The position numbers and the translations under genes are program-made. A DNA stretch of 64,000 bases. Source: Caldilineaceae bacterium SB0661_bin_34. Lineage in GTDB: Bacteria; Chloroflexota; Anaerolineae; Caldilineales; Caldilineaceae. Under the pieces are notes generated by a model, which saw only the letters and a list, made by a program, of their open reading frames with translations, was not told the origin of the DNA and did not search any database. Below, piece by piece: positions 5,498-27,399 of this stretch. The stretch lies in contig VXMJ01000026.1 in assembly GCA_009841145.1 (NCBI GenBank), positions 1 through 64,000 of the forward strand. Reading direction: 5' to 3'. Each line of letters begins with the position of its first letter. The stretch's first letter is position 1.

Positions 5498-6634
5498 ATG
5501 AGGATTCGTGAAATTCGCTGTGCCGGCTTGCGGGGGGCCACTCCGGAAGGCGGTTGGGATGAGGAACTACAAGCCGACGACTGTGTCCACACGTTGGTGT
5601 TGATTGTCACGGAGGAAGGCCTTACCGGCTTGGGCAGCGCCTTTACGTCGGAAGCACTAGTCAAGGGCGCGCTTGATCTGATGTGGCCCTTGTTGCGCGG
5701 CGAGAACGCACTGGAACCGGAACGAGTCGCCGAAAAACTTCACCAGCACACGTTTTGGACCGGCCGGGGAGGATCGGTAACCCACGCGATCAGCGCCGTT
5801 GACATTGCCATGTGGGACATTCTGGGCAAGGCTGTCGGCCAACCCGTCGGACGGTTGCTGGGCGGCCGATATCGCGAGACGGTTATGCCCTATGCCTCGG
5901 TGCTGATGGACTACCCCGACCGGATGGCCGATGTGCTGTTGCCGCTGCGTGACCGGGGATACCGTGCCATCAAGATGGGCTGGGGACCCTTCGGCCGTGA
6001 GGATCAGGGTCTGGACGAGCGGATCGTAAGCGAGTCGCGGTCGCTGGTAGGAGACGAGTGCCTGTTGATGGTTGATGCCGGGGCCAGCGACGCCTTCTGG
6101 ACCAAAGGCTACAAGTGGGCTCTGCGGACCGCCCACATGCTTGCAGACTACGATGTGGGCTGGTTTGAGGAACCGCTGGCGCCTGACGCCATGGCGGACT
6201 TTGAACAACTCCGCGTCCATGCACCACTGCCCATTGCCGGCGGCGAGGTCCTGACCCGGCGTCAAACCTTCAAGCCATGGTTGGACCGCGGGTGTTTCGA
6301 TATCGTCCAGCCCGATGTCACCAAAGTCGGCGGGATTTCCGAATCCCGTCGCATTGGCCGCATGGCCGAGGATGCCGGGGTTCGTTACATCCCCCACGGT
6401 TGGAACACCGCCTGCGGACTGGCGGCGGATCTCCATCTGGCATCCGCATTTCCGGGAACGGACTTGGTGGAGTACATAGCAGGTTCGGCCTATGTGGATG
6501 AACTTCGTGCGGGGTCCTGGTGTCTGGACGCCAACGGACATTTGGCCATACCGGACAATCCGGGCTTGGGACTTGAGCTCGATCCCGATGCCGTGGCGCG
6601 CTATACCGGCCAACGCGACTTCCTGAATCCCTAG
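5498..6634 (+). CDS. Mandelate racemase/muconate lactonizing enzyme family protein (sugar-acid dehydratase type)
   Basis: Enolase-superfamily enzyme, 378 residues, that should abstract an alpha-proton from a carboxylate with a Mg ion, typically dehydrating or racemising a sugar acid. The capping domain covers about 1-125. In the barrel I see the catalytic lysine K159 (in KMG), metal ligands D193, E224 (FEEPL) and E250 (GGEV), and the general acid/base H300 (HGWNT), so the catalytic set looks complete. The second position of the usual KxK is glycine, as in several acid-sugar dehydratases. It is the first gene of a plus-strand run, with the SDR starting 7 bases after its stop. The exact sugar acid cannot be assigned. 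Confidence 0.88.
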   Translation: MRIREIRCAGLRGATPEGGWDEELQADDCVHTLVLIVTEEGLTGLGSAFTSEALVKGALDLMWPLLRGENALEPERVAEKLHQHTFWTGRGGSVTHAISAVDIAMWDILGKAVGQPVGRLLGGRYRETVMPYASVLMDYPDRMADVLLPLRDRGYRAIKMGWGPFGREDQGLDERIVSESRSLVGDECLLMVDAGASDAFWTKGYKWALRTAHMLADYDVGWFEEPLAPDAMADFEQLRVHAPLPIAGGEVLTRRQTFKPWLDRGCFDIVQPDVTKVGGISESRRIGRMAEDAGVRYIPHGWNTACGLAADLHLASAFPGTDLVEYIAGSAYVDELRAGSWCLDANGHLAIPDNPGLGLELDPDAVARYTGQRDFLNP

Positions 6635-6641
6635 ACCGGAA

Positions 6642-7439
6642 ATGACGCGCATGGGCACGCGACTGGCCGGCAAGACCGCCATCATCTCCGGCGGTGCGTC
6701 CGGTATGGGCCGGGCCCAGGCCCGGCTGTTTGCCCGTGAAGGGGCTTCGGTCTGCATAGTTGACATAAATCAAGAGGCAGGCGAAGAGGTCGCAGATGGG
6801 ATCCGCCGGGCCGGCGGGCAGGCGATTTGCTGTCGCTGCGACGTGCGTTCGGCCGCGGACTGGGAGGCGGCTGTTGGCGCCGCATTGAATGCGTTTGATC
6901 AGGTAACCACGCTGTGCAACATCGCCGGCAGCAATGTGCGCAACAGCTTCGACGAACAGACCGAAGAGCAGTGGCACTTCATCGTTGAAACCGCCTTGAC
7001 CGGAGCCTACCTTGGCATCAAGGCGGTTGTGCCGGCCATGCGCAGGTACGGACACGGCTCAATCATCAACACCGGATCCTTGGCGGTGACCCATGCCGGG
7101 GGCAATCCCGCCTATTCCGCCAGCAAAGTCGGCATGCTGGGCTTGACCGTCAGTACGGCCGCGGCCTATGCCGCCGATCAAATTCGGTGCAACCTCGTGT
7201 CCCCCGGACATGTGGACACACCCTTCCTCAGGGCCAACGCACCTCACAGCCCCAACGACGAGTCGACCAGCATCAATGTCCCGGAAAACTACCGGCGTCG
7301 GCTGGAGGCAACACCTATGGGACGCCTGGTCCAGCCCGAAGACATTGCCCAGGCCTTCCTGTTCCTGGCTTCGGACGAAGCTTCCATGATTACTGGTGCC
7401 CACCTCAAGGTGGATGGCGGCGCCGGTCTGGCCGTGTAG
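6642..7439 (+). CDS. Short-chain dehydrogenase/reductase
   Basis: NAD(P)-dependent classical SDR, 265 residues. The Rossmann glycine motif GGASGMGR lies near residues 17-24 and a variant NIAG replaces the usual NNAG. The catalytic set is present: S146, Y158 and K162 (YSASK). An acidic residue ending beta-2 (VDIN) suggests NAD preference. The C-terminus has the common 'GAHLKVDGG' ending. It starts 7 bases after the enolase-superfamily gene and is therefore translationally linked; it probably oxidises a polyol, sugar lactone precursor or hydroxy acid in the same pathway. An internal ATG at 6651 is an alternative start. Substrate unknown. Confidence 0.9.
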   Translation: MTRMGTRLAGKTAIISGGASGMGRAQARLFAREGASVCIVDINQEAGEEVADGIRRAGGQAICCRCDVRSAADWEAAVGAALNAFDQVTTLCNIAGSNVRNSFDEQTEEQWHFIVETALTGAYLGIKAVVPAMRRYGHGSIINTGSLAVTHAGGNPAYSASKVGMLGLTVSTAAAYAADQIRCNLVSPGHVDTPFLRANAPHSPNDESTSINVPENYRRRLEATPMGRLVQPEDIAQAFLFLASDEASMITGAHLKVDGGAGLAV

Positions 7440-7528: not shown

Positions 7529-8581
7529 GTGATCGACTGCGATATTCACAATGAGGTTCCGCATTTGGAGGAACTGTATCCGTATCTTCCGCAACATTGG
7601 GTGGACTATACGGAGGAGTCGTCGTTTGAAGGGCCGGATGCGAACGACTATCCGGAAATGGTGGCAACGACCGTGCACCCCGACATCCGTGACGACTACT
7701 TCGGCGACGGACGGTGCAACACTGCGGCACGCGTTCGGTTGATACAGGACCGGGTGCTGGATCCGCTGGAGATTTCAGTGGCCATCCTGAACAATGCCTT
7801 CAGGGTTCCATCCATCCACTCCGTGGACCTGGCCGCGTCGATGGCCACGGCGGTCAACACCTGGCAGCAGGAGCAGTGGCTGGCAGCGGACAACCGATTC
7901 CGTGCATCGATTATTGTTCCAAGCCACAATCCCGTGGCGGCGGTCCAGGAGATTCGGCGCTGGCAAAACACTCCGGGTTTTGTGCAGGTCCTTCTCCCTG
8001 TACGGTCGCATGTGCCGTACGGGGTACGCAACATGGACCTGCTGTTCGAGGCCATCGCAGACTCCGGACTGCCTGCGGCCATCAATTTCGGAGGTGCTCC
8101 GGGTGTGCCCCCCACCGGTGTGGGCTGGCCACAAACCTATTACGAAATTCATGCCGGCATGGCTCAGGTGTTTCAGTCGCAGGTCATGAGCATGGTCTAC
8201 GAAGGACTGTTCGACCGCTATCCGCAACTGCGCATTGTGTTGCTGGAGGGTGGCTTCACTTGGGCACCGTCGCTAATGTGGCGGATGAACAAGGAGTGGA
8301 AGGGGCTGAGGCACAATGTGCCGTGGGTTAAGAACTGGCCCGCGGACTATATCCGAACCCATTTTCGGTGGTCGCTGCAGCCGTTGGATGCACCGGATGA
8401 TCTGGATCAGATGCTTGAAATTCTGGATATGATGGAAGCGGACGAGCTGTTAATGTTCTCCACCGACTTTCCGCATTGGCAGCAAAAGGAGATCGCGCCA
8501 AGGGTCCCGGACTGGATGCCGGAAGACCTGCGGCGAAAAGTGTGTTTTGAGAATCCGCGCGCATTCTATAGTCTAGAGTGA
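7529..8581 (+). CDS. Amidohydrolase family 2 (PF04909-type TIM barrel), first of a tandem pair
   Basis: Metal-dependent hydrolase or decarboxylase-like TIM-barrel protein, 350 residues, with a GTG start at 7529. The N-terminal metal motif is represented by 'IDCDIH' and the C-terminal conserved aspartate by 'FSTDFPHW'. The family includes ACMS decarboxylase, resorcylate decarboxylases and lactonases. It shares long blocks with the next gene (AGMAQ.FQSQV, EGGF.W...LMWR), so the two arose by tandem duplication. One oddity: where the downstream copy has a likely metal-ligand histidine (VHFGG, H202), this copy has asparagine (INFGG, N186). Its activity may therefore differ, or it may be a non-catalytic partner. 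Substrate unknown. Confidence 0.85.
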   Translation: MIDCDIHNEVPHLEELYPYLPQHWVDYTEESSFEGPDANDYPEMVATTVHPDIRDDYFGDGRCNTAARVRLIQDRVLDPLEISVAILNNAFRVPSIHSVDLAASMATAVNTWQQEQWLAADNRFRASIIVPSHNPVAAVQEIRRWQNTPGFVQVLLPVRSHVPYGVRNMDLLFEAIADSGLPAAINFGGAPGVPPTGVGWPQTYYEIHAGMAQVFQSQVMSMVYEGLFDRYPQLRIVLLEGGFTWAPSLMWRMNKEWKGLRHNVPWVKNWPADYIRTHFRWSLQPLDAPDDLDQMLEILDMMEADELLMFSTDFPHWQQKEIAPRVPDWMPEDLRRKVCFENPRAFYSLE

Positions 8582-8642
8582 CCGCGGAAGGATTGTTTGG
8601 ATTGCTGTTGTCCACACCAGTCGCCGATTTGGAGGTCCCGCC

Positions 8643-9746
8643 ATGGCCGTTAGCTTGACAAGCCCACTGCAAGATCGCACCGGCGCCGAGGTTGTGCGCA
8701 CTCCGATCATCGACACGGATGTGCATGTGTACATCCAACCCGACGATCTCGAAAGGCACCTCTCTCCCTTCTGGAGGGACCAATACCTCAATTTCGGCAA
8801 GCGCACCTACGACGGCATGCTGTTCCCCCGGTCCATGCCCATGGCCGCCCGGCACGACGCGTGGCCTCCCAATGGCGACATACCGGGTGCAAATCTGGAG
8901 TTCACGCAGATGCAGCTCCTGGACGAGTTCGACATGGACTACGCCATCCTCACCCCGCTCACCGGCACGGGTGAAGTCCTGAACTTCGACTTCGGGCTAG
9001 CCCATGCCCAGGCCGTCAACGACTATCAGATTGAGGACTGGTGTGCGCACGACAGCCGGTTGCGCGCCTCGATCATCATTCCCTACGAGGACGGACCGCT
9101 TTCGGCCGAGGAGATTCATCGATTGGGCAACCACCCCTCGATGGCGCAGGTATTTCTGGTTACCCGGACCCGCGACCCTCTGGGCTCCAGGCGCTACTGG
9201 CCGATCTACGAGGCGGCCTGCGAATACGACCTCCCGATCGCCGTGCATTTTGGTGGTGTGGGCGGCAGTGGCATCACGGGTGCCGGATCTCCGACCTACT
9301 ACATTGAAGATCATGCAGGGATGGCGCAAAGCTTCCAGTCCCAGGTGACCAGCATTGTTAGCCAAGGATTGTTCGAGATATTCGACAACCTCAAGTTCGT
9401 CCTGATCGAGGGCGGGTTTGCCTGGATGATTCCGCTCATGTGGCGACTGGACCGCACCTGGGAAAAGCTGCACAAGGAACTGCCCCGGGTCAAGAAACCG
9501 CCGTCCGAATACATTCGCGAGCATATGTGGATTAGTACGCAGCCCATCGAAGAGCCTCTGTATCCGCACCAGTTCAATCAGATGCTGGACCAGTTGGACA
9601 TGACCGATCGGTTGATGTTCGCGTCGGACTACCCCCACTGGGACTTCGACAATCCAATGCGCGCCATCCCGTCCACCGTCGCCGACGCCGCGCGCCGGCG
9701 CATCATGGCCGAGAACGCCGCGGAACTGTACGACCTGCCCATCTGA
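8643..9746 (+). CDS. Amidohydrolase family 2 (PF04909-type TIM barrel), second of a tandem pair
   Basis: Paralog of the preceding gene, 367 residues, with a good GGAGG ribosome site before the ATG at 8643. Visible elements are 'IIDTDVHVY' at the first barrel strand, the probable metal ligand H202 in VHFGG, the conserved 'EGGFAW' segment and the late 'FASDYPHWDFD' loop carrying the catalytic aspartate. Family enzymes hydrolyse or decarboxylate ring-derived acids using one divalent metal. It lies 61 bases after its paralog and 7 bases before the Rieske ferredoxin gene, hinting at a ring-oxidation or ring-opening route, which is inference. No signal peptide, so cytoplasmic. Confidence 0.88.
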   Translation: MAVSLTSPLQDRTGAEVVRTPIIDTDVHVYIQPDDLERHLSPFWRDQYLNFGKRTYDGMLFPRSMPMAARHDAWPPNGDIPGANLEFTQMQLLDEFDMDYAILTPLTGTGEVLNFDFGLAHAQAVNDYQIEDWCAHDSRLRASIIIPYEDGPLSAEEIHRLGNHPSMAQVFLVTRTRDPLGSRRYWPIYEAACEYDLPIAVHFGGVGGSGITGAGSPTYYIEDHAGMAQSFQSQVTSIVSQGLFEIFDNLKFVLIEGGFAWMIPLMWRLDRTWEKLHKELPRVKKPPSEYIREHMWISTQPIEEPLYPHQFNQMLDQLDMTDRLMFASDYPHWDFDNPMRAIPSTVADAARRRIMAENAAELYDLPI

Positions 9747-9753
9747 GTCCGCA

Positions 9754-10197
9754 ATGCCCAAGTACGCGGTCGCAACCGTTGACGAGATTCCGGCAGGTCA
9801 GCGGAAGGTTGTCGAGGTTGCCGGCCGCGTCGTCGGCATCTTCAACCTGGAAGGCGAGTTTTTCGCGCTGCGCAACACCTGCCCCCATCAGGGCGGGCCC
9901 CTTTGCAATGGACGCGTAACGGGCTTCCTGCACGGTCAGCCCGGCGCGCTCGTGTACTCCCGGCAAGGGGAGATCCTGCGTTGTCCTTGGCATGGCTGGG
10001 AATTCGACATCCGGACGGGGCAGTCGTGGCACAACCCGGCGCGCGTGCGTGTGAGGGCCTATGAGGTTTCCGTGAACGAAGGCCCGGTGGAGGGCCCGTA
10101 CAAGGCGGAGTCCTTTGACGTAGAGGTACGGCAACAGGTTGTCTACGTGGACATTCCCGGCGCGTCGGACATGCCCGAGGCCACTGGTTCCGGTTGA
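9754..10197 (+). CDS. Rieske [2Fe-2S] ferredoxin-like protein
   Basis: A 147-residue stand-alone Rieske domain protein. The iron-sulfur ligands are the pair C43/H45 in CPHQG and the pair C77/H80 in CPWHGWEFD. The two pairs are separated by 31 residues, longer than in the smallest ferredoxins because of a loop carrying 'HGQPGALVYSRQGE'. No membrane span or large oxygenase domain is attached, so it most likely passes electrons to an oxygenase or acts as a redox subunit. It starts 7 bases after the second amidohydrolase and is probably co-transcribed. No matching oxygenase alpha subunit or reductase is visible in the window. Confidence 0.9.
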   Translation: MPKYAVATVDEIPAGQRKVVEVAGRVVGIFNLEGEFFALRNTCPHQGGPLCNGRVTGFLHGQPGALVYSRQGEILRCPWHGWEFDIRTGQSWHNPARVRVRAYEVSVNEGPVEGPYKAESFDVEVRQQVVYVDIPGASDMPEATGSG

Positions 10198-10256
10198 CGA
10201 CTTCCCTCCGAATTTCTTTTTGACTCCCGTGTCCGGTTGCGTTGCGGAAGGTCTCC

Positions 10257-11201
10257 ATGCGCGTTCTTGTCTACTACCCGTCCATGACCGAGTCGGATCT
10301 GGCCCAGGTACAGGCCGCGGCACCCGATGCCGACATCGTGCACGCCAAGACTGCGGACGAGGCTGCCGCGGCGGCCGACGGGTCCGAGGTAATCATGGGG
10401 TTGATGCCGCAGGAGGTTTTCGCGCAGGCCGGCTCGTTGCAGTGGTTTCAGTCTGCGTCGGCCGGCCTGGACAATGTTCTGTTCCCCGAGTTGGTCGAGT
10501 CCGACGTGATTCTGACCAACATGGCGGGTTTGTATGCCGCCGCCGGTGGAGAGCAGGCTTGGGCGCTGCTGCTAGCCTTGGCGCGCGGCCTGCCCGATGC
10601 CGTTCGCAGTCACAGTGCCCGCAAGTGGCAGAAGGTTCCCATTGCCGAAATCACCGGGAGGACGATGCTGGTTCTGGGGATGGGTGGCTTCGGGCAGGAG
10701 ATTGTCAAACGTGGCGCCGGCTACGATCTGAACATTCTTTCGTTGGACCCGGAGAGGACCGAAGCACCGGGCGTGGCCGAAATCAGGACGCCGACCAAGG
10801 AGAATCTTCACGCCTTTCTCCAAGTGGCCGACATGGTGATGGTTGCCTGTCCCTTGACCAGGGAAACCTACCACTGGATTGCCGACGAGGAGTTTGGCCG
10901 GATGCAGTCCCATGCATATCTTGTCAATGTTTCGCGGGGCGGCATCATCGATGAAGAGGCGCTGGCAAGAGCATTGCACAAAGAGCTCATTGCAGGCGCA
11001 GGCCTTGACGTTCAGGAAGTTGAACCTCTGCCTCAATCAAGTCCGCTGTGGGACGCGCCGAACTTTTTGATGACGGCCCATCAAGCCGGGTTCTCGGCGG
11101 ATCGCCACCGCAATGTGGTCCGTTTTTTTGCCTCGAACCTGCAACGGTACGTGGCCGGTGAGCCACTGGCAAACGTATGTGACATGGCCAAGGGGTATTA
11201 G
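10257..11201 (+). CDS. D-isomer-specific 2-hydroxyacid dehydrogenase
   Basis: NAD(P)-dependent 2-hydroxyacid/2-oxoacid oxidoreductase, 314 residues. The C-terminal Rossmann domain opens with VLGMGGFG, the substrate-binding arginine lies in VNVSRGG, the acidic partner of the relay is in EVEPLP, and the catalytic histidine is in TAHQAG (the usual family proline before the histidine is replaced by alanine). The ATG at 10257 gives the normal N-terminus; a TTG five codons upstream is also in frame. Relatives reduce glyoxylate, hydroxypyruvate or other 2-oxoacids. Position between the Rieske gene and the purine-degradation genes would suit removal of glyoxylate from either pathway, but that is inference. 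Confidence 0.9.
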   Translation: MRVLVYYPSMTESDLAQVQAAAPDADIVHAKTADEAAAAADGSEVIMGLMPQEVFAQAGSLQWFQSASAGLDNVLFPELVESDVILTNMAGLYAAAGGEQAWALLLALARGLPDAVRSHSARKWQKVPIAEITGRTMLVLGMGGFGQEIVKRGAGYDLNILSLDPERTEAPGVAEIRTPTKENLHAFLQVADMVMVACPLTRETYHWIADEEFGRMQSHAYLVNVSRGGIIDEEALARALHKELIAGAGLDVQEVEPLPQSSPLWDAPNFLMTAHQAGFSADRHRNVVRFFASNLQRYVAGEPLANVCDMAKGY

Positions 11202-11246: not shown

Positions 11247-11381
11247 AACTCGGGAATCGGTGTTGCTTCCGATCCTCTGCCACGCTCTCCCAGGCTACGG
11301 GCCGGGGCGACGTTGCCGACTCGGTTGTGCGGCACCGGCAGGCGCTTCGTAGCGCGCCAGGCGAAGTCGGGAACCAGGCAA

Positions 11382-12740
11382 ATGCAAGCCGACCTGTATC
11401 TGAAGGACGCGTTGGTCGTTACGGAGACCGGGGAATTCCGCGGCGGCGTAGTCGTGAAGGACGGTGTCGTGGCCCAGGTTGTAGCCGGGTCTCCCGATAT
11501 CCAGGCCACAACCTGCCTTGCACTGCAAGGTCGCGTGTTGTTGCCGGGCCTGGTGGATAGCCATGTCCACTTCAACGAGCCCGGACGGGAGGACTGGGAA
11601 GGGTTTCGGACGGGCACCATGGCGGCCGCCGCGGGCGGCGTCACCACCGTGGTCGACATGCCGCTGAATTCATCCCCGCCGACCGTGGACTGCGTTCAAC
11701 TGCAACGCAAGCAGACAGCAGTGCGCGACCAAGCCGTAGTGGACTACGCCCTGTGGGGCGGGTTGATCAACAACAATCTGGCTCACTTGGAGAGCCTCTG
11801 CGCCGAACGGGTGGTCGGTTTCAAGGCGTTCCTGGTGTCCAGTCCCGATTTTCCCCGGGTGGATGACGACCTTGTGTTCGCCGGTATGCGCCAGGTGCGC
11901 GCCCTCGACAGTCTGTTGGCCGTACATGCCGAGAACGAAAGGGTGACCATGTACCTGGCCGAGGAACTTCGGTCGCGGGGACGGCGCGATCCCTTGGCCT
12001 GGGCGGAATCGCGCCCAGGACACCAGGAAGTGGAAGCAGTGGCCCGCGTTCTGCACTGGGCGGCAACCACCGGAGCAACCCTGCATGTTGTGCATGCGTC
12101 CCTACCCGATGTGGTGCGGCTTGTGGCTGCGGCCAAGCGTAGGGGAGTCCCGGTAACGGTGGAAACCTGTCCCCACCATCTGCTCCTCGATCTCGACGAC
12201 TTTCAGAGGATCGGGCCGGACGCCAAGTGCGCGCCTCCGCTGCGCAGCCGCGAGACCGTGGAAGACCTTTGGCAGTGTGTTCTGGCAGGGAAAGTGGACA
12301 CGTTCGGATCAGATCATTCACCCTGTCCTCCCGAACTCAAGCGGGTTGGAGAAGGCGACGTGTGGCAGGCTTGGGGCGGGATTTCCGGCATCCAGACCAT
12401 GTTGCCTGCGCTGATGACGGAAGGTGTGCACAAGCGGGGCCTGTCGCTGGCGGCCTTGACGCGGATGGCTTCGGCAAATCCGGCCCGCCTGCTGGGGTTG
12501 TATCCCCGCAAGGGGATAATCCAACCCGGCAGCGACGCCGACTTCGTGGTCGTCAATCCGGACTGTCGGTGGACATTGACCCCCGACCACCTGTTCTACC
12601 GCCATCGCCACAGTGCATTTGTGGGGCATGCGTTCCGCGGTGCAGTGGAACGGACCATCGTGAGAGGAACCACGGTCTACCATCGGGAGGCCATCCGGGT
12701 TGAACCCGGCTTTGGCCGGTTGCTCCACCGGACCCGGTGA
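11382..12740 (+). CDS. allB: Allantoinase
   Basis: Cyclic amidohydrolase that opens allantoin to allantoate in purine degradation, 452 residues. The binuclear metal site is recognisable: H61 and H63 (DSHVHFNEPG), the carboxylatable lysine K148 (FKAFL), histidines in HAENE and ETCPHHLLLD, and D311 with H312 in SDHSPC. The SDHSPC context and the following 'GGISGIQTMLP' separate allantoinase from dihydroorotase and hydantoinase. The ATG at 11382 is chosen because it directly precedes the beta-strand 'LYLKDALVV'; the frame is open further upstream. It is followed 37 bases later by ureidoglycine aminohydrolase, two steps further along the same pathway. Confidence 0.93.
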   Translation: MQADLYLKDALVVTETGEFRGGVVVKDGVVAQVVAGSPDIQATTCLALQGRVLLPGLVDSHVHFNEPGREDWEGFRTGTMAAAAGGVTTVVDMPLNSSPPTVDCVQLQRKQTAVRDQAVVDYALWGGLINNNLAHLESLCAERVVGFKAFLVSSPDFPRVDDDLVFAGMRQVRALDSLLAVHAENERVTMYLAEELRSRGRRDPLAWAESRPGHQEVEAVARVLHWAATTGATLHVVHASLPDVVRLVAAAKRRGVPVTVETCPHHLLLDLDDFQRIGPDAKCAPPLRSRETVEDLWQCVLAGKVDTFGSDHSPCPPELKRVGEGDVWQAWGGISGIQTMLPALMTEGVHKRGLSLAALTRMASANPARLLGLYPRKGIIQPGSDADFVVVNPDCRWTLTPDHLFYRHRHSAFVGHAFRGAVERTIVRGTTVYHREAIRVEPGFGRLLHRTR

Positions 12741-12777
12741 TGCGGTGTTCGACCAGGAAGAAAGTACAGGTATTCCC

Positions 12778-13527
12778 ATGGACCCATTTGGATTTACCCG
12801 CAGTCGAATTCGCCCCAGCTACGCCCTCATCACGCCTCCATCCCATGTCGAGGCGCCTTTGCCCAACTGGCTCAATTCCTCCGGCGTGATTTTGATTTCG
12901 CCGCGAATGGGGGCCGGATTCTGTCAATTCGCGGCGTTGATGGGGCCTGAATCGGCTGCCGCCGCACCCGCACCCGGCATCGAACGGTTCGTCTTTGTTG
13001 AGCAGGGCAGGTGCACGCTTGATGTCGCGGGCTCCCGCGAGGATCTTGCACAAGGAGGTTTTACCTTCATCCCGGCAGATTGTGAACACATGCTTGCCTC
13101 AACCGAAGGCTGTCGTCTGACCGTGTTTGAGAAACCATACGTGCCGTTGGCCGGTGTGTCCGCGCCCCAACCGGTGTCGGGACGCGAGCAGACGATTTCG
13201 GCAGAGCCGTTCATGGGCGATCCGGATGCCATGCTCAAGACGCTGTTGCCCGATGCGCCCGAATTCGATCTGGCCGTCAATCTGTTCGAGTTCGCTCCCG
13301 GTGCCGCCTTGCCCATGGTGGAAGTCCATGTAATGGAGCATGGGCTGCTGATGGTGCAGGGCAAGGGAATTTACCGGCTCGGTGACGACTGGCATCCGGT
13401 GCAGCGCGGCGATGTGATTTGGATGGCTCCCTTTTGTCCCCAGTGGTTTACGGCCGTAGGCAAGGAACCGGCACGGTACCTGTACTACAAGGATGTGGGC
13501 CGAGATCCTTTGGGAAGCTCCGCGTGA
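12778..13527 (+). CDS. allE: (S)-ureidoglycine aminohydrolase
   Basis: Bicupin enzyme that releases ammonia from ureidoglycine to form ureidoglycolate, 249 residues. Both cupin halves are visible; the C-terminal cupin carries the expected Mn ligands E182, H184 and H188 (EVHVMEHG) and Q222 (CPQWF), matching the Glu-His-His-Gln set known for this family. The ATG at 12778 gives the normal start 'MDPFGFTRS'. It lies directly after allantoinase, but allantoate amidohydrolase, which makes its substrate, is not in the window. The assignment is firm because cupin metal ligands and neighbours agree. Confidence 0.92.
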   Translation: MDPFGFTRSRIRPSYALITPPSHVEAPLPNWLNSSGVILISPRMGAGFCQFAALMGPESAAAAPAPGIERFVFVEQGRCTLDVAGSREDLAQGGFTFIPADCEHMLASTEGCRLTVFEKPYVPLAGVSAPQPVSGREQTISAEPFMGDPDAMLKTLLPDAPEFDLAVNLFEFAPGAALPMVEVHVMEHGLLMVQGKGIYRLGDDWHPVQRGDVIWMAPFCPQWFTAVGKEPARYLYYKDVGRDPLGSSA

Positions 13528-18537: not shown

Positions 18538-19344
18538 TCAAAAATCGATGGAGCGCAGGTATTGCAGTGTGGTCGCGCTGCGACGGGCTTCGTCCATGGG
18601 CGAGTCGGCACCCGGAATCGGAGCTCCCGGACACGCGGTGACCCAGCGGTCGAAACCCGACTCCGCCAGATTTGCCCGGATCGCGGGAAAGTCCATGTGA
18701 CCGGGTACGTGCACATCGACCCATTCCGGGTAGTACCAACGGTCGTCCCGAATGTCCACCGAGGTGTACTCCTGAAGGTGCACATAGTTGAGCTGGCTGC
18801 GGTAGAGGATCAGGGCCTCCACGGGATCGATGCCCCACAAATGGGCATGGGAAACGTCGATGCACAGACCTGATCTGCTCAGACGCTTCATGTAGGCGTC
18901 CCACGTCTCAAGGGAATTCACCGTGTGGTTGGTATGGATGTGCATCGTGATCTCAAGCCCGAGGGTGCCGGCAAACTCGGCCCATTCGTCCGCTGCGTCC
19001 GCGGCCCGGTACACCTCGTCGGTATTGGCCAGCCTGTCCGCGGGCTGTTCGGCGCACATGAACATGAAGCAGTCGCATTCCATTTCGGCGGCGAATTCCA
19101 TGCGCCGCTTGTTGATTTCATACACGCGCGGATCCCTGTGGTCGGGGCTGCCGATTGCAGTCAGCACCGCCAAGGGTAAGCCGACGCGATCGCAAATGCC
19201 CCGGAGGCGCTTGGGTGTACCCATCCAGTCGAGCGGGAACCGGGCTTCCCAGCCATCCCATCCCGCTTCCTTGAGTGCTTCCAGGCAGGGTTCCAGGTCC
19301 GGTTCGTGCCATCGCAGGGTTGCGAACCCCAGTTTGAAGGTCAT
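18538..19344 (-). CDS. Sugar phosphate isomerase/epimerase-type TIM barrel (AP_endonuc_2 family)
   Basis: Predicted cytoplasmic isomerase, epimerase or dehydratase of a sugar or cyclitol, 268 residues. It begins with 'MTFKLGFATLRW', a GGAG site precedes the ATG at 19344, and the frame extends 16 codons upstream without similarity. Barrel elements include 'EAGWDGWEARFPLDW', the metal-binding type strand 'ITMHIHTNHT', CIDVSHAH and 'VHLQEY', which provide likely His/Asp/Glu ligands for a divalent metal. It is divergent from iolB with a 326-bp shared control region, so it may take part in inositol use as an inosose isomerase or dehydratase alternative; this is inference. Confidence 0.8.
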   Translation of the reverse strand: MTFKLGFATLRWHEPDLEPCLEALKEAGWDGWEARFPLDWMGTPKRLRGICDRVGLPLAVLTAIGSPDHRDPRVYEINKRRMEFAAEMECDCFMFMCAEQPADRLANTDEVYRAADAADEWAEFAGTLGLEITMHIHTNHTVNSLETWDAYMKRLSRSGLCIDVSHAHLWGIDPVEALILYRSQLNYVHLQEYTSVDIRDDRWYYPEWVDVHVPGHMDFPAIRANLAESGFDRWVTACPGAPIPGADSPMDEARRSATTLQYLRSIDF

Positions 19345-19670
19345 GACATTGCTCCACTGTCGTATGACTGGCTGCACTCGCTGCATCCTCAAGGACGTGG
19401 ACGCAGGAGTGAGTGCGGTTTGGTACGGATTGTAGGGCAGCCAACGGATTGGCGAACACCGCCGTCAACCCCGGAAATCCAGTTGCACACCGTCACGTTC
19501 GGCCCTCCAACCTGGGCGACCGTTTGAAAACGCGGGGTTCTGTTGGACAATAACGGGATGCAGATTGCAGACCGCACCGGTTCCCGGTTGGCAGCGGTCT
19601 TCCGGTGCCTGCCTTGGTGCCTACATTGCCGGCGAACCGGCCTTCGCCCTCCTGGATACGAAAACCATAG
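19345..19670. other. Divergent intergenic region upstream of the inositol operon
   Basis: About 326 bases separate the minus-strand TIM-barrel gene from iolB. It should hold promoters for both directions. I see no convincing sigma-70 hexamers, no clear palindrome long enough to name as an operator, and no coding potential. No IolR or other regulator gene is visible nearby. Confidence 0.4.
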
Positions 19671-20606
19671 ATGCAGTACACCGCAGAGAACATTCTGGTC
19701 CTGCCGCAATCCGATGCCGAGTCGGGCGAACCGGGGTTGGTCACGCGCGTGACCCCGGAGAGCGCCGGCTGGGCCTGGATCGGCTTCGAAGTCCACCGGA
19801 TCCAATCCGGTCGGAGTTGGGAAACCTCGACCGGCGATCAGGAATTGGCCTTGGTCAACCTCAGCGGACGCTATCGTTTGAAGTCCGACCGCATCGACCT
19901 GTCCGACGAATTCGGCGGACGCCCCAATGTCTTCGCCGGCGCGTGCCACACCCTGTACCTGCCGCCCGGGTCCGACCTGACGGTCACCTGTGTTGAAGAC
20001 GGCGAGTTTGCGGTCGCGACGGCTCCGGCGCAAGTGGAACATCCGCCGTTTCTCACCCTCCCCGGCCAAGTGGACATGAACCTGCGGGGAGGAGACAACG
20101 CGACAAGGCAAATCAACGACCCCCTGCCGCCCGGTTCCCCGGTGGACAGGCTGGTCCTGGTTGAGGTGTACACGCCCAGCGGCGGCTGGAGCAGCTATCC
20201 GGGCCACAAGCACGATGTCCACATCGAGGATGACCGGGGAGAGTTGGTGGAGGCAGACCTCGAGGAAATCTACTACTACAAAATCACTTCCACCCGCAGC
20301 GATCCTTTCGGAACCTACGATCCCGACGGGTATGCCTATCAACGCGTCTATACTGACGAAGCCTCCCCGCTCCACCAGGCCGGCAAGCCCATCGATGCCC
20401 TGGTCCGTCCGCGCAACGACTGTGTGGTGCTGGTGCCCGAGGGCTACCACCCGGTGGTCAGCCCTCCGGGCTACGTGACCTACTATCTGAACGTGCTCGC
20501 CGGCAGCGCGCAGAGCCTGGCGAACCAGGACGATCCGCGCTACGCCTGGGTCAAGGACACATACCGAACCACCAATCCCGACGTTCCGCTGTATCGACCG
20601 GCCTAG
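19671..20606 (+). CDS. iolB: 5-deoxy-glucuronate isomerase
   Basis: Bicupin isomerase that converts 5-deoxy-D-glucuronate to 2-deoxy-5-keto-D-gluconate in myo-inositol catabolism; 311 residues. The C-terminal cupin carries the family block 'WSSYPGHKHD' followed by EEIYYYK, supplying the His, His and Glu metal ligands, and later 'RVYT', VLVPEGYHPV and 'PGYVTYYLNVLAG'. It is the first gene of the plus-strand iol run, 34 bases before iolC. No strong ribosome site precedes the ATG at 19671. The order B-C-D-A matches the logical order of the pathway genes in many bacteria. Confidence 0.95.
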   Translation: MQYTAENILVLPQSDAESGEPGLVTRVTPESAGWAWIGFEVHRIQSGRSWETSTGDQELALVNLSGRYRLKSDRIDLSDEFGGRPNVFAGACHTLYLPPGSDLTVTCVEDGEFAVATAPAQVEHPPFLTLPGQVDMNLRGGDNATRQINDPLPPGSPVDRLVLVEVYTPSGGWSSYPGHKHDVHIEDDRGELVEADLEEIYYYKITSTRSDPFGTYDPDGYAYQRVYTDEASPLHQAGKPIDALVRPRNDCVVLVPEGYHPVVSPPGYVTYYLNVLAGSAQSLANQDDPRYAWVKDTYRTTNPDVPLYRPA

Positions 20607-20640
20607 GCCTGCACGGACGTCCCGCTTCCCTCATTTGGCC

Positions 20641-21660
20641 ATGACTGACTCCGCCAAGTCCTTTGACTCCCTGCACATGGGGCGGTCCAGCATCGATCTC
20701 TACAGCAACGATGTGGGAACCCGCTTCCCGGACATCACGTCCTTCGCCGCCTATGTGGGCGGTTCGCCCACGAACATTTCCGTGGGCATGACCCGGTTGG
20801 GGCGCCGGGCTGCGCTCCTGACAGGGATCGGGGACGATCCGGTCGGGGATTTCGTGTTGGAGTTCCTGGTCAACGAAGGCGTGGAAACACAGTGGGTTGT
20901 ACGCAAGCCCGGACTGCGCACGAGTGCGGTGGTCTTGGGAATCGAACCGCCGGACCGGTTCCCGCTGGTCTTCTACCGGGAGAATTGTGCCGACATCAAC
21001 GTCACCATTGACGACGTGCTGGCCTCGCCGTACGACGACTGCAGGGTGTTCCAGTTTGCCGGCACCAATCTTTCCCGCGAACCAAGTCGGTCGGCAACCA
21101 TGTTTGCGGCCGAATCGGCGCGCAGCCACGGTGCGACCGTGGTGTTCGACCTGGATTTCCGCCCCGACCAGTGGCACGACGCCCGGGCGTTCGGGGTGGT
21201 GGCCCGGTCGATCATGCAGCAGGTGGACATCGTCGTGGGAACGCACGATGAAGTCAATGCCGCCCTGCTGGCCGATCCAGCCCAAATGACCGTGACGGAC
21301 TCGCAGGTGTCCGACACCCAGGTCGAGGGGGATGTTCTGGCTGCCATCGCGCGGATCCAGAGTCTGGGTCCGCAGCATGTGATTGAGAAGGTCGGTGCCC
21401 TGGGCGCGCGCGTCCACACCCGCGGCGAACCTCCTTGCGACGTGCCCGGATTCCCGGTGGACATCTACAACATTCTGGGTGCCGGGGATGCCTTTGGCGC
21501 CGGTTTCATCTTTGGACTGGTCAGCGGCTGGACGCTGGAGCGGTCCGCCCGGCTGGGCAACGCCTGTGGCGCCATGGTGGTGACGCGGCATGGCTGCGCC
21601 AACTTCATGCCCACCTGGGACCAGGTGAACGAATTCATTGACAGCCACGGCGGCTGGTAG
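20641..21660 (+). CDS. iolC: 5-dehydro-2-deoxygluconokinase
   Basis: PfkB-family kinase that phosphorylates 2-deoxy-5-keto-D-gluconate; 339 residues. N-terminal markers are 'MGRSSIDLYSNDVG' and YVGGSPTNISVGMTRLG; the catalytic aspartate lies in the C-terminal 'GAGDAFGAGFIFGL' motif that forms the anion hole. It is a stand-alone kinase, without the C-terminal aldolase-like (DUF2090) domain fused in some proteobacterial IolC proteins, which matters because no separate iolJ aldolase is present here. The ATG at 20641 is preferred; a TTG two codons earlier is in frame. Confidence 0.95.
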   Translation: MTDSAKSFDSLHMGRSSIDLYSNDVGTRFPDITSFAAYVGGSPTNISVGMTRLGRRAALLTGIGDDPVGDFVLEFLVNEGVETQWVVRKPGLRTSAVVLGIEPPDRFPLVFYRENCADINVTIDDVLASPYDDCRVFQFAGTNLSREPSRSATMFAAESARSHGATVVFDLDFRPDQWHDARAFGVVARSIMQQVDIVVGTHDEVNAALLADPAQMTVTDSQVSDTQVEGDVLAAIARIQSLGPQHVIEKVGALGARVHTRGEPPCDVPGFPVDIYNILGAGDAFGAGFIFGLVSGWTLERSARLGNACGAMVVTRHGCANFMPTWDQVNEFIDSHGGW

Positions 21661-21686
21661 CAACCAAAACGGGGATGGGAACAACG

Positions 21687-23576
21687 ATGACCGAACCAAC
21701 TGTGCGTCTCACCATGGCGCAGGCCATTGTCCGCTTCCTGTGTGCCCAGTACACGGAGCGCGACGGTCGGCGCCAAGCCTTCTTTGCCGGATGCTTCGGC
21801 ATCTTCGGCCACGGCAACGTGTCCGGAATGGGCCAGGCCCTGCAACAGTACCCTGCTCTCCGCTATTACCAAACCCGCAACGAACAGGCGATGGTGCATA
21901 CCGCCATTGGCTTTGCCAAGCACAGCCGCAGGTTGCGGACGCTGGCCTGTACCTCCTCCATCGGTCCCGGTGCCACCAACATGGTGACGGGGGCGGCCAC
22001 GGCCACCATCAACCGCCTTCCGGTGCTGCTGTTGCCGGGCGACATCTTTGCCCGGCGCAATGTGGCACCGGTCCTGCAACAGCTGGAGTCCGAACACAGC
22101 CAGGATTTCTCGGTCAACGACACGTTTCGTCCGGTCAGCCGCTATTGGGACCGCATCAATCGCCCGGACCAGTTGGTTTACAGTCTGCCGGAGGCCATGC
22201 GCGTCCTGACCAGCCCCGCGGATACCGGTGCCGTCACGATTTCCATCCCGCAGGATGTGCAGACGGAAGCGTTCGACTATCCCGCAGCGCTGTTCGAGGA
22301 ATGGGTGTGGCACGTGCCGCGTCCGCGCGCAGACTTGGCCAGCCTGCAACGAGCTGCGGAGTTGCTGCGCGGAGCCCAGCGGCCGCTCATCGTGGCGGGT
22401 GGTGGCGTCCAATACAGCGAAGCCGAAGACGCATTGCGCGCGTTTGCGGGCCGAACCGGCATCCCCGTTGCCGAGACCATGGCGGGCAAAGGCAGCCTGG
22501 ACTTCGATGATGCCAGATCCTTGGGGGCTATGGGATTGACCGGAACGTCCGCTGCCAACATCTATGCCCGGGACGCGGATGTGGTCATGGGAGTTGGCAC
22601 CCGTTGGAGCGACTTCACCACCGCCAGCAAGACCGCCTTTCAGGATCCGGAAGTCCGCTTCATCAACTTGAACGTGTCCGAGTTTGATGCCGGCAAGCAC
22701 CAAGGGGTGTCGGTTACGGGCGATGCCAGGGTCTGCCTGGAGGAACTGGACGCGATGCTGCCAGACAAAATCACCGACGCCGACCTTGATGCCCGCATTG
22801 CGGCGCTCAAGAAGGAGTGGGAATCGGAGGTGGACCGGATTTATGCCTTGCACGAGTCGGACAGCGGAGTAGCCGCGCAGGGTGCACTTATAGGCGCCGT
22901 GAATGAACAGGGCGATCCGGACGCTGTGATGGTCGGTGCTGCCGGCAGCCTGCCGGGTGACTCCCACAAGCTGTGGCGCAGCCGCCATCCGCTGCAGTAC
23001 CACATGGAATACGGGTATTCCTGCATGGGATACGAAATCGCCGGCGCCCTCGGCGTAAAGATGGCGGAACCGGACCGAGAGGTGTATATCCTGGTTGGAG
23101 ACGGTTCCTATCTGATGATGGCCTCGGAGATTGTCACTTCGGTCCAGGAGGGCTACAAGCTGACAATCGTGCTGATGGACAACAGTGGTTTCAAGAGCAT
23201 CGGGGGCCTAAGCCGCTCCCTGGGCCAAAGCGGCTTCGGCACGCGATACCTGTTCCCCGAGAACGGTGCGTTGCCTACGGATGAAGCCGGTGGCCACAAG
23301 CGTCCCCTGCCGGTGGACCTGGCCACCAACGCCGCCAGTCTGGGTGCCGTGGTCATTGGCTGCAATTCGGTGGATGATGTTGTGGAGGCACTGGCACGCG
23401 CCAAGGACATTGACCGCACGGTCGTCATCCACGTCACCAACGACCGCTATCTCGGCGTGGATGTCTATGAGTCCTGGTGGGACGTGCCCGTGGCCGAAGT
23501 CAGTGAAATCGACACGGTCAACGCGGCGCGCGAGGAATGGGAGCAGATGCGGTCCAAGGAGCGCTTCTACCGCTAG
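21687..23576 (+). CDS. iolD: 3D-(3,5/4)-trihydroxycyclohexane-1,2-dione hydrolase
   Basis: Thiamine-diphosphate enzyme that opens the ring of the diketo-cyclitol to 5-deoxy-glucuronate; 629 residues. It shows 'RLTMAQAIVRFLC' at the start, 'GFGIFGHGN'-like N-terminal region, the glutamate of the ThDP site in 'TRNEQAMVHTAIGFAK', and the C-terminal cofactor motif from GDGSYLMM to 'LMDNSGFKSIGGLSRS'. It is 26 bases after iolC. The ATG at 21687 is chosen because GGGA lies about 7 bases upstream and it aligns with typical IolD N-termini; the ATG at 21675 is also in frame. Confidence 0.95.
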   Translation: MTEPTVRLTMAQAIVRFLCAQYTERDGRRQAFFAGCFGIFGHGNVSGMGQALQQYPALRYYQTRNEQAMVHTAIGFAKHSRRLRTLACTSSIGPGATNMVTGAATATINRLPVLLLPGDIFARRNVAPVLQQLESEHSQDFSVNDTFRPVSRYWDRINRPDQLVYSLPEAMRVLTSPADTGAVTISIPQDVQTEAFDYPAALFEEWVWHVPRPRADLASLQRAAELLRGAQRPLIVAGGGVQYSEAEDALRAFAGRTGIPVAETMAGKGSLDFDDARSLGAMGLTGTSAANIYARDADVVMGVGTRWSDFTTASKTAFQDPEVRFINLNVSEFDAGKHQGVSVTGDARVCLEELDAMLPDKITDADLDARIAALKKEWESEVDRIYALHESDSGVAAQGALIGAVNEQGDPDAVMVGAAGSLPGDSHKLWRSRHPLQYHMEYGYSCMGYEIAGALGVKMAEPDREVYILVGDGSYLMMASEIVTSVQEGYKLTIVLMDNSGFKSIGGLSRSLGQSGFGTRYLFPENGALPTDEAGGHKRPLPVDLATNAASLGAVVIGCNSVDDVVEALARAKDIDRTVVIHVTNDRYLGVDVYESWWDVPVAEVSEIDTVNAAREEWEQMRSKERFYR

Positions 23577-23643
23577 CCAAGGTTCGGGACCGGAGGACCG
23601 CTAACGGTGCTCCGGCGCCGACAAGCAGGGAAGGATGCAAGCC

Positions 23644-25083
23644 ATGATTGTCAAGAACTTCGTCAACGGATCGTTTGCGGCCAGCCAATCCGAAGACACC
23701 ATGCCGGTGCGCAATCCGGCCACCAACGAACAGTTGGCAACACTGCCGTTGACGACTGCCACTGAAGTCGACACGGCTGTGCAGACTGCCCAGGCCGCCT
23801 ATCCGGCATGGCGCCGCACCCCGGTCGTGGACCGGGTTCAGCCGCTGTTCAGGCTCAAGGCCCTGCTGGAGGATCATTTCGAGGACATTTCCCGCACGGT
23901 GACCCTTGAGTGCGGCAAGACCTTGGTCGAGGCGCGCGGCGAGGTTCGGCGGGGCATCGAAAATGTTGAAGTGGCCTGCGGCATGCCATCCCTAATCCAA
24001 GGGTGGAATAACGAGGACATTGCCCACGGCATCGACGAACACATGATCCGCCAGCCGTTGGGCGTGGTGGCGGCCATCACCCCCTTCAACTTCCCGGCGA
24101 TGATCCCGTTGTGGTTTCTGCCCTACGGAGTGGCCACGGGGAATTCGTTCATCCTCAAACCCAGCGAAAAGGTCCCGCTGACCAGCCAGAAGCTGTTCGG
24201 TCTGATCGAGCAGGCGGGTTTCCCCTCCGGAGTTGTGCAACTGGTCAACGGCGATGCGGATGTCGTAAATACGCTCATCGATCATCCCTTGGTGCGCGCA
24301 GTTTCGTTTGTCGGGTCCACGCCGGTGGCCAAACTGGTCTACGCCCGCGCCACCGCCAACGGCAAACGCGCACAGTGTCAAGGGGGAGCCAAGAATCCTG
24401 TTGTCATCATGCCTGGCGTCGATGTGGAAGGCGCAGCCAATGCCATGGCCGAAAGCGCCTTCGGTTGCGCCGGCCAGCGGTGCTTGGCCCTGTCGACCGC
24501 GATCACGGTCGGCGACATGCACAAGCCGTTTGCCGAGGCCATGGCTGACCTGGCAACTTCGCGGCGTGTGGGCAACGGGTTGGATGACGATACCGAAATG
24601 GGACCGGTGATCACCGAAGCAAGCCGCCAACGCATAGAAGGGATCCTGGCACAGGCCGACGACGGGAACGGACGCTTCGTAGTGGATGGCCGCGGCCGCA
24701 GGGTGGACGGACACCCGGCCGGACACTGGATCCATCCGACCGTTCTTAATGCGGAACCCGGCATGCTCGTGGCCCGGGATGAGATTTTTGGCCCCGTCCT
24801 CAGCCTGATGCAGGCCGAAGATCTGGACCAGGCCATCGATTGGGTCAACGATCGGGCCTTCGGCAACATGGCTTGCCTGTTCACTCGGGACGGCAAGGCG
24901 GCGCGCGAGTTCCGCCACCGCGCCGATGCCGGCAACATCGGCATCAACATCGGCGTGGCCGCGCCCATGGCATTCTTCCCGTTCAGCGGTTGGAACGAGA
25001 GCTTCTTCGGCGATCTCCATGCGCAGTCGCGGCACGGTGTGGAGTTCTACACGCAGACCAAGGTCGTGGTCGAACGCTGGTAG
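23644..25083 (+). CDS. iolA: Methylmalonate-semialdehyde dehydrogenase (CoA-acylating)
   Basis: NAD- and CoA-dependent aldehyde dehydrogenase that turns malonate semialdehyde or methylmalonate semialdehyde into acetyl-CoA or propionyl-CoA; 479 residues. The catalytic cysteine is C280 in GQRCLAL, with 'AITPFNFPAMIPLWF' for cofactor binding and a KPSEKVP loop. The acid 'GECGKT'-type glutamate position reads LECGKTL. It directly follows iolD and ends 20 bases before the Zn-alcohol dehydrogenase, so it is within the inositol operon. The ATG at 23644 is placed about 9 bases after GGAAGG; the ATG at 23635 is a closer, less likely alternative. Confidence 0.93.
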   Translation: MIVKNFVNGSFAASQSEDTMPVRNPATNEQLATLPLTTATEVDTAVQTAQAAYPAWRRTPVVDRVQPLFRLKALLEDHFEDISRTVTLECGKTLVEARGEVRRGIENVEVACGMPSLIQGWNNEDIAHGIDEHMIRQPLGVVAAITPFNFPAMIPLWFLPYGVATGNSFILKPSEKVPLTSQKLFGLIEQAGFPSGVVQLVNGDADVVNTLIDHPLVRAVSFVGSTPVAKLVYARATANGKRAQCQGGAKNPVVIMPGVDVEGAANAMAESAFGCAGQRCLALSTAITVGDMHKPFAEAMADLATSRRVGNGLDDDTEMGPVITEASRQRIEGILAQADDGNGRFVVDGRGRRVDGHPAGHWIHPTVLNAEPGMLVARDEIFGPVLSLMQAEDLDQAIDWVNDRAFGNMACLFTRDGKAAREFRHRADAGNIGINIGVAAPMAFFPFSGWNESFFGDLHAQSRHGVEFYTQTKVVVERW

Positions 25084-25103
25084 CCGATCCACAAGGAGAC
25101 ATC

Positions 25104-26135: not shown

Positions 26136-26179
26136 TTCCCTGCATCTGAGCGGCCAGCAAACAGGCACTCCGCACAACC

Positions 26180-27379: not shown

Positions 27380-27399
27380 CGACCAAACCGGATGAAGTT

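Follow-up and report, generated by a model that had tools for sequence, protein, structure and literature searches.

We found that a compact gene cassette in a 64,000-nucleotide stretch (hereafter the window; contig VXMJ01000026.1, positions 1 to 64,000) of Caldilineaceae bacterium SB0661_bin_34 very probably codes for two components, hydroxylase and ferredoxin, of an O2-dependent multicomponent monooxygenase that belongs to the amidohydrolase-related dinuclear oxygenases (AROs), with a predicted two-subunit arrangement of the AibH1H2 type. The cassette consists of two PF04909 genes, the first named AH1 and the second AH2, and a gene for a Rieske [2Fe-2S] protein; AH2 and AibH2-type proteins are referred to as alpha subunits, and AH1 and AibH1-type proteins as alpha-prime subunits. 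As described in a first-pass annotation, the two paralogous PF04909 genes and the Rieske gene lie within 2.7 kb on the plus strand and are followed by a D-2-hydroxyacid dehydrogenase gene (Table 1). The same annotation held that no oxygenase subunit accompanies the ferredoxin. This appears to be wrong in substance, because the nearest solved relatives of the pair are ARO monooxygenases; by homology, the AH1-AH2 pair itself would be the oxygenase, and none is missing.

The Pair Resembles the Hydroxylase AibH1H2

AH1 and AH2 both scored above the curated PF04909 cut-off and share 122 of 345 aligned positions (35% identity), indicating that they are paralogues. The best PDB match of AH2 was AibH2 (6m1w_B, E 8.9e-79), and those of AH1 were SfbO (8sm6), 8sm7, 8sm9 and AibH1 (6m1w_A), with E values from 7e-69 to 8e-60. 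A monomer model of AH1 (mean pLDDT 80.1) was closest to AibH1 (8ful_A, Z 38.3), with two other AROs within 1 of this score. AROs have been defined through PF04909 genes lying beside small Rieske genes, which mark multicomponent monooxygenases (PMC10811679), and an adjacent small Rieske gene is reported for 90% of AibH2-like genes (PMC10401708). The cassette has the PF04909 domain, the set of six metal ligands in AH2 and a small Rieske gene within three coding regions, and on these sequence tests the pair likely belongs to the ARO class. When compared with three copies from the same genus, AH1, AH2 and the Rieske gene differed mostly at third codon positions (22 of 22 differences in AH2 against locus L039), suggesting purifying selection on all three genes.

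The ARO class was named in 2024 in a paper according to which very few members are known (PMC10811679); AibH1H2 is the only characterised two-subunit ARO that we found in the open-access literature. The AibH1H2-AibG-AibF system of Rhodococcus wratislaviensis (PDB 6M1W, 8FUN) likewise has a Rieske gene after two PF04909 genes in tandem, AH1 and AH2 group with AibH1 and AibH2, respectively, and the AibH2 ligands together with the second-shell Asp342 are kept in AH2. The arrangement is AibH1H2-like, and two features of AibH1H2 do not recur here, namely the AibH1 metal site, where AH1 has Asn in place of the Site 0 ligand His201, and an adjacent reductase. SfbO of Litorilinea aerophila and other single-subunit AROs (PDB 8SM6-8SM9) share with AH2 the PF04909 fold, the six ligands and the second-shell Asp, and are likewise adjoined by a small Rieske gene; they differ in having one hydroxylase gene instead of two and in occupying a separate part of the tree. 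PtmU3, the hydroxylase of the platensimycin pathway, is also a PF04909 monooxygenase with a dinuclear cofactor (PMC10811679). It is distant from both proteins (E 2.9e-8 to AH1 and 2.5e-8 to AH2) and is described as lacking an auxiliary subunit (PMC10401708).

The gene order of the cassette is identical to aibH1-aibH2-aibG (PMC7782822), as would fit a system hydroxylating Aib or another alpha-amino acid as in Rhodococcus. We consider this improbable. Among the neighbour genes scanned, no aib-type pyridoxal phosphate (PLP)-dependent decarboxylase, alanine dehydrogenase or amino acid permease was recognised, and the neighbours are of the sugar-acid type. Moreover, the pair of Rhodococcus pseudokoreensis (L067), and not the window pair, branches with AibH1 and AibH2 themselves. 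The Aib pathway was dropped as a candidate, the gene context appearing to speak against Aib hydroxylation.

AH1 Is Probably a Non-Catalytic Subunit That Has Lost a Metal Ligand

In the phylogenetic tree, the clade uniting AH1 with AibH1 has 34 tips (support 0.954) and the clade uniting AH2 with AibH2 has 36 (support 0.649); the single-subunit AROs such as SfbO stood apart. The distances of AH1 and AH2 were correlated in a mirror-tree comparison (25 gene pairs, r 0.921, a value not attained in any of 5000 permutations), as would be expected of genes that are inherited together. The alignment showed all six AibH2 ligands in AH2 (D26, H28, H202, E256, D329 and H332) as well as the second-shell residue D334, the counterpart of AibH2 Asp342, whose mutation reduces activity (PMC10401708). 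Every one of the 47 complete alpha sequences and of the 16 single AROs (unique sequences) had the six ligands and the Asp342 equivalent. None of the 46 alpha-prime sequences had Asp at the latter position, which was occupied instead by His (31), Gln (12, including AH1 of the window) or Arg (3). One truncated alpha sequence was left out of the counts, as were open reading frames (ORFs) shorter than 240 aa in the ligand alignment or 250 aa in the mirror-tree comparison, and hence the broken AH1 of locus L046. At that locus, AH1 is broken into two overlapping ORFs (L046:3430-4481), through a frameshift or an assembly error in the metagenome-assembled genome (MAG).

The mononuclear site of the alpha-prime subunit is formed in AibH1 by D24, H26, H201, E255 and D328, four of which are kept in the window AH1, with Asn186 standing for H201. 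This beta-5 His, which binds the Site 0 metal of AibH1, was retained in 25 of 46 alpha-prime sequences and replaced by Asn in 16 and by Gln in 5. All 21 losses fell within the window's family, which contributes 32 of the 46 sequences (window included), and the other 14 all keep His. Fitch parsimony on a 49-tip tree gave about seven changes at this position, some of them inside one genus, a count that is approximate because the shallow nodes of the tree are short. Our literature search, limited to open-access papers, found no report of ligand loss in alpha-prime subunits. Powell et al. found that Site 0 substitutions made AibH1 insoluble and suggested a structural metal (PMC10401708). Since the laboratory mutants are insoluble, the natural variants make the role of Site 0, a question left open by Powell et al., accessible to testing.

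The possibility that both AH1 and AH2 are catalytic oxygenase subunits would agree with the best sequence match of AH1 being SfbO, a catalytic single ARO, and with the retention of five of the six ligand positions in a gene under selection. It is very unlikely, however, in view of the replacement of the beta-5 His by Asn186, the Gln at the Asp342 position, where Asp occurs in no alpha-prime sequence, and the description of AibH1 as auxiliary (PMC12141560). AH1 is probably a non-catalytic alpha-prime subunit; it would serve as the structural partner in a heteromer, one ligand of its own metal site having been lost in the window's lineage.

The Pair and the Rieske Gene Are Consistently Linked

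An AH1-like match (E 1e-20 or better, single AROs included) was found in 36 of 46 genomes of the window's family, as compared with 1 of 54 genomes searched from the rest of the class. At an identity of 46% or more, AH1 occupied 52 places in 30 genomes of the family (two partial matches, G007:C61 and G041:C245, were left out), and AH2 lay downstream on the same strand at all 52, arguing that the linkage is not due to chance. A Rieske gene followed the pair within 600 bp at at least 29 of the 52 places and within 3 kb at at least 46, six places having none among the matches listed, from which weak matches may be absent; at 17 of the 46 Rieske-linked places the gene was 1.3-2.1 kb away. The pair together with a Rieske gene recurred across phyla, in Chloroflexota, in MAGs named Acidobacteria (L042) and Aminicenantes (L043), and on plasmids of Alphaproteobacteria and Rhodococcus, where the R. 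pseudokoreensis locus shows the order of the window with a reductase next to it. The scattered occurrence without consistent linkage that the first-pass annotation had named as speaking against its proposal was thus not what we observed.

The Pfam family name Amidohydrolase, and the occurrence of PF04909 decarboxylases among the weaker PDB matches, could suggest that the pair consists of ordinary hydrolases or decarboxylases that depend on a metal, with an unrelated Rieske neighbour. This is highly improbable. The ARO structures match far better (E 7e-69 for AH1 and 9e-79 for AH2) than the gamma-resorcylate and 5-carboxyvanillate decarboxylases, for which E was at least 1.5e-7 for AH1 and at least 4e-10 for AH2. 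The AH1 model gave Z scores of 35.5-38.3 to AibH1H2 and SfbO-type chains as compared to 28.3 or less to decarboxylases, a ranking with which such an activity is still compatible; in addition, the Rieske gene is linked at most places and the dinuclear ligand set is complete in AH2. The hydrolase/decarboxylase reading was dropped on the sequence ranking and the fold ranking of AH1, both favouring AROs. From the "ring-oxidation/decarboxylation route" of the first-pass annotation, the oxidative role is retained, and ring oxidation and decarboxylation are disfavoured by the same rankings. PF04909 "amidohydrolase" genes beside a Rieske gene are easily mistaken for hydrolases.

Several variants of the arrangement were observed. 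At L051 and L052, which belong to one genus of the family and are the two examined among the 17 places with a Rieske gene 1.3-2.1 kb away, the pair is separated from the Rieske gene (motif spacing 37) by a third PF04909 gene. The same genus has another paralogous pair with no Rieske neighbour among the matches listed (L060, L061). In the window's own genome, two more PF04909 genes lie directly beside Rieske genes, on contigs C49 (L063) and C67 (L085). The C49 protein is a single ARO branching near SfbO. The C67 protein, of 314 aa, covers positions 1-264 of the 289-position Pfam model and was left out of the tree; its gene adjoins an OppC-type permease gene and a family 5 binding-protein gene. 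On a plasmid of Sulfitobacter sp. OXR-159 (L070), an IS5-like transposase gene occupies the place of AH1, upstream of AH2 and two ferredoxin genes.

The Rieske Protein Has an Unusually Long Motif Spacing

The window Rieske protein has 31 residues between its CxH and CxxH motifs. The spacing was 31-37 in all 43 Rieske ORFs counted at ARO loci (46 with the motif overall); the remaining three, dioxygenase-type ferredoxins at the same loci, were counted apart and have a spacing of 16. One Rieske ORF lacking the motif (L079_18685) was dropped from the count. Within the window's own genome, the Rieske proteins encoded directly beside PF04909 genes have spacings of 31 (C93, C49) and 32 (C67). A fourth (L084:6119-6532, contig C53) also has 32; its contig shows no PF04909 match, and xylose-isomerase-like and GH16-domain genes are nearby. 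The other four, one of them (C6) about 8.5 kb from a PF04909 match, have 15-17. The long spacing may serve as a sequence mark of ARO-serving Rieske proteins.

In a monomer model (mean pLDDT 71.4), the extra residues form a beta-hairpin with strands at 54-62 and 65-76. The best Foldseek matches of this model were soluble Rieske ferredoxins, the top match by E-value being a mouse protein (3d89, TM-score by target length 0.58). Dioxygenase ferredoxins of the CarAc and BphA3 type resemble the window protein in the fold of the core, with Foldseek TM-scores of about 0.7-0.8 by target length, but differ from it in spacing (16 in the three measured, against 31 with the modelled hairpin), in a shorter C-terminal part and in not having a PF04909 pair as partner. 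After the CxxH motif, pair-linked Rieske proteins have at least 55 residues, as compared with 34-36 in seven of eight bacterial single-linked ones. The long tail is not exclusive to pairs, since it is also found in two haloarchaeal single-linked proteins and in that of L081.

The first-pass annotation had also considered that the Rieske protein might be a redox partner of something encoded elsewhere, which is unlikely because the adjacent AH1-AH2 pair is its predicted partner. That the gene serves a distant enzyme and lies here by chance, as the six pairs without a listed Rieske match might suggest by being separable from it, is extremely improbable against its presence within 3 kb at at least 46 of 52 pairs and the shared spacing of 31-37 (43 of 43), as compared to 16 in the three dioxygenase-type ferredoxins.

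Points Against the Assignment and the Electron Supply

Several observations weigh against the assignment of the cassette to an AibH1H2-type ARO. The support for the clade joining AH2 and AibH2 is moderate (0.649). The shared species history stays in the permutation test of the mirror-tree comparison, so the correlation of AH1 and AH2 distances points to joint inheritance and not to contact. AibH1 has all six ligand positions by sequence, yet its crystal structure has one metal, bound by five residues (PMC7782822), and the six-residue test alone therefore cannot tell alpha from alpha-prime. Outside the family the gene order is variable: across nine pair loci of Alphaproteobacteria, the Rieske gene comes after AH2 in three (two Roseomonas and Mesorhizobium japonicum), is upstream of the pair in five (Microvirga, Rhizobium, Sinorhizobium and two Mesorhizobium) and was not seen in one (Neorhizobium, L069). 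The plasmid loci examined here were 17, hand-chosen for variety from 40 listed among 135 matching records.

The last points concern the reductase. The Aib monooxygenase of Rhodococcus is active only when AibH1, AibH2, AibG (the Rieske protein) and AibF (a flavoprotein) are all present (PMC7782822). No AibF-type reductase was recognised among the neighbour genes scanned, consistent with the first-pass annotation, which had noted that no reductase accompanies the ferredoxin. Searches of the window's own genome, which is 98% complete, with PF00175, PF00970 and PF14759 (FNR-/BphA4-type reductases) likewise gave no match at E 0.001; the latter two profiles were searched in this genome only. PF00175 matched 35 of the family's 46 genomes and none of the four from the window's genus, and was also missing from five other pair-carrying genomes (G009, G021, G032, G038 and G039). 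PF07992 had 15 matches in the window's own genome, two of which were examined. The C12 protein is a thioredoxin reductase (TIGR01292, score 397 against a cut-off of 343). The C88 protein (L087:2685-5879) has glutaredoxin- and thioredoxin-reductase-like parts (278, below cut-off), and its gene is closely followed by a 595-aa ORF whose Rieske domain has the ordinary spacing (16). Neither flavoprotein is tied to the ARO by evidence. Reductases near ARO loci on plasmids are of the PDR/VanB type in Rhodococcus and Microvirga, and FAD-dependent oxidoreductases beside a dioxygenase-type ferredoxin in Mesorhizobium and Sulfitobacter; next to the single AROs of Sinorhizobium and Mesorhizobium they are of the hybrid-cluster type.

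The lack of PF00175 in four genomes of the genus raises the question of which donor feeds these enzymes. A speculative further reading is that the cassette represents a heteromeric ARO branch whose helper subunit no longer needs metal, Site 0 having been lost or weakened several times with the catalytic site of the partner intact, in a genus that may run without an FNR-/BphA4-type ferredoxin reductase. On this reading, the Rieske protein would take its electrons from a different sort of donor, such as a thioredoxin-reductase-like flavoprotein. The window also carries a cytochrome P450 gene (PF00067, 47227-48687), whose product needs an electron source as well in this genome without FNR-/BphA4-type matches.

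Gene Context, Proposed Mechanism and Possible Substrate

Six genes on the plus strand, for an enolase-superfamily enzyme, a short-chain dehydrogenase/reductase (SDR), AH1, AH2, the Rieske protein and a D-2-hydroxyacid dehydrogenase, follow one another with gaps of 7, 89, 61, 7 and 59 bp. The nearest named records were MAGs of Caldilineaceae/Caldilineales, with AH1 98-99% identical. The six-gene order was retained in the same-genus records L040 and L041, which keep the enolase-superfamily and SDR genes; L039 starts within the SDR gene, and the dehydrogenase gene is present in all three.

Table 1. Genes of the cassette and its flanks, and residues discussed in the text, by window position.
Feature	Coordinates	Strand	Basis and remarks
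AH1, AibH1-type (alpha-prime) subunit, probably non-catalytic	7529..8581	+	PF04909, E 2.9e-33
AH2, predicted catalytic (alpha) subunit of AibH2 type with a dinuclear Mn/Fe or Fe2 site	8643..9746	+	PF04909, E 4.3e-39
Rieske [2Fe-2S] ferredoxin, AibG-like	9754..10197	+	PF00355, E 5.1e-18; motif spacing; model
Asn186 of AH1, aligned with the Site 0 ligand His201 of AibH1	8084..8086	+	alignment columns
AH1 Gln318, at the place of AibH2 second-shell Asp342	8480..8482	+	alignment columns
Extended stretch between the Rieske cluster-binding motifs, residues 46-76	9889..9981	+	beta-hairpin in model, block-mean pLDDT 54-73
Enolase-superfamily enzyme (mandelate racemase / sugar-acid dehydratase type)	5498..6634	+	PF13378, PF02746; likely same operon
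Short-chain dehydrogenase/reductase (SDR)	6642..7439	+	PF13561; 7 bp past the enolase-superfamily gene; likely same operon
D-isomer 2-hydroxyacid dehydrogenase, ATG at 10257	10242..11201	+	PF02826 (E 2.1e-49), PF00389; likely same operon

In the proposed mechanism, electrons from NAD(P)H would pass through a flavoprotein reductase encoded elsewhere to the Rieske protein, which would reduce the dinuclear Mn/Fe or Fe2 site of AH2. O2 would be activated at this site, and a small polar compound would receive one of the oxygen atoms at an aliphatic C-H bond. Hydroxylation at a carbon adjacent to O or N could give an unstable product that breaks up, resulting in a dealkylation. The co-encoded SDR, enolase-superfamily enzyme and 2-hydroxyacid dehydrogenase may then handle the product further.

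The substrate is perhaps derived from a sugar, a sugar acid or a polyol, a tentative suggestion that is drawn from the gene context. Sugar ATP-binding cassette (ABC) permease genes or their relatives occurred at seven of the nine alphaproteobacterial pair loci, a raw count at hand-chosen loci. Loci L068, L076 and L077 share DhaK/DhaL, SDR, LacI and enolase-superfamily genes, and a Roseomonas locus has a glucosylglycerate-hydrolase-like enzyme (362 bits, below the cut-off of 550). Other observations point away from such a substrate. Loci L042-L061 are 20 further pairs, from neither the window's genus nor the plasmids; six of them have relatives of sugar ABC permeases and two have relatives of the enolase superfamily, and the other neighbours of pairs are diverse, including amidase, PhyH, major facilitator superfamily (MFS) and M20 peptidase genes and PLP- and thiamine pyrophosphate (TPP)-dependent enzymes. 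The nearby enolase-superfamily gene is also less telling because PF13378 has 39 matches (E 0.001 or lower; 37 above the curated cut-off) in the 4.34 Mb of the genome, about one per 111 kb. The gene itself scored under the cut-off of each NCBIfam model listed. The inference of a sugar or polyol substrate is thus a weak one.

Directly 3' of the cassette, at 11313-13527, the window carries genes for allantoinase (TIGR03178) and ureidoglycine aminohydrolase (TIGR03214), both above cut-off. A link of the cassette to purine breakdown through these genes was rejected as unsupported because relatives of them were found at L039-L041 only, out of the 28 loci L039-L066. The allantoinase frame of L040 is broken into four ORFs. 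Farther along, the region 18538-28347 carries genes of inositol-type catabolism, with IolD (TIGR04377, 879 against a cut-off of 715), an IolE-like protein (below cut-off) and GFO/IDH/MocA genes, together with a coenzyme A (CoA)-acylating methylmalonate-semialdehyde dehydrogenase gene (TIGR01722, 554 against 448.5).

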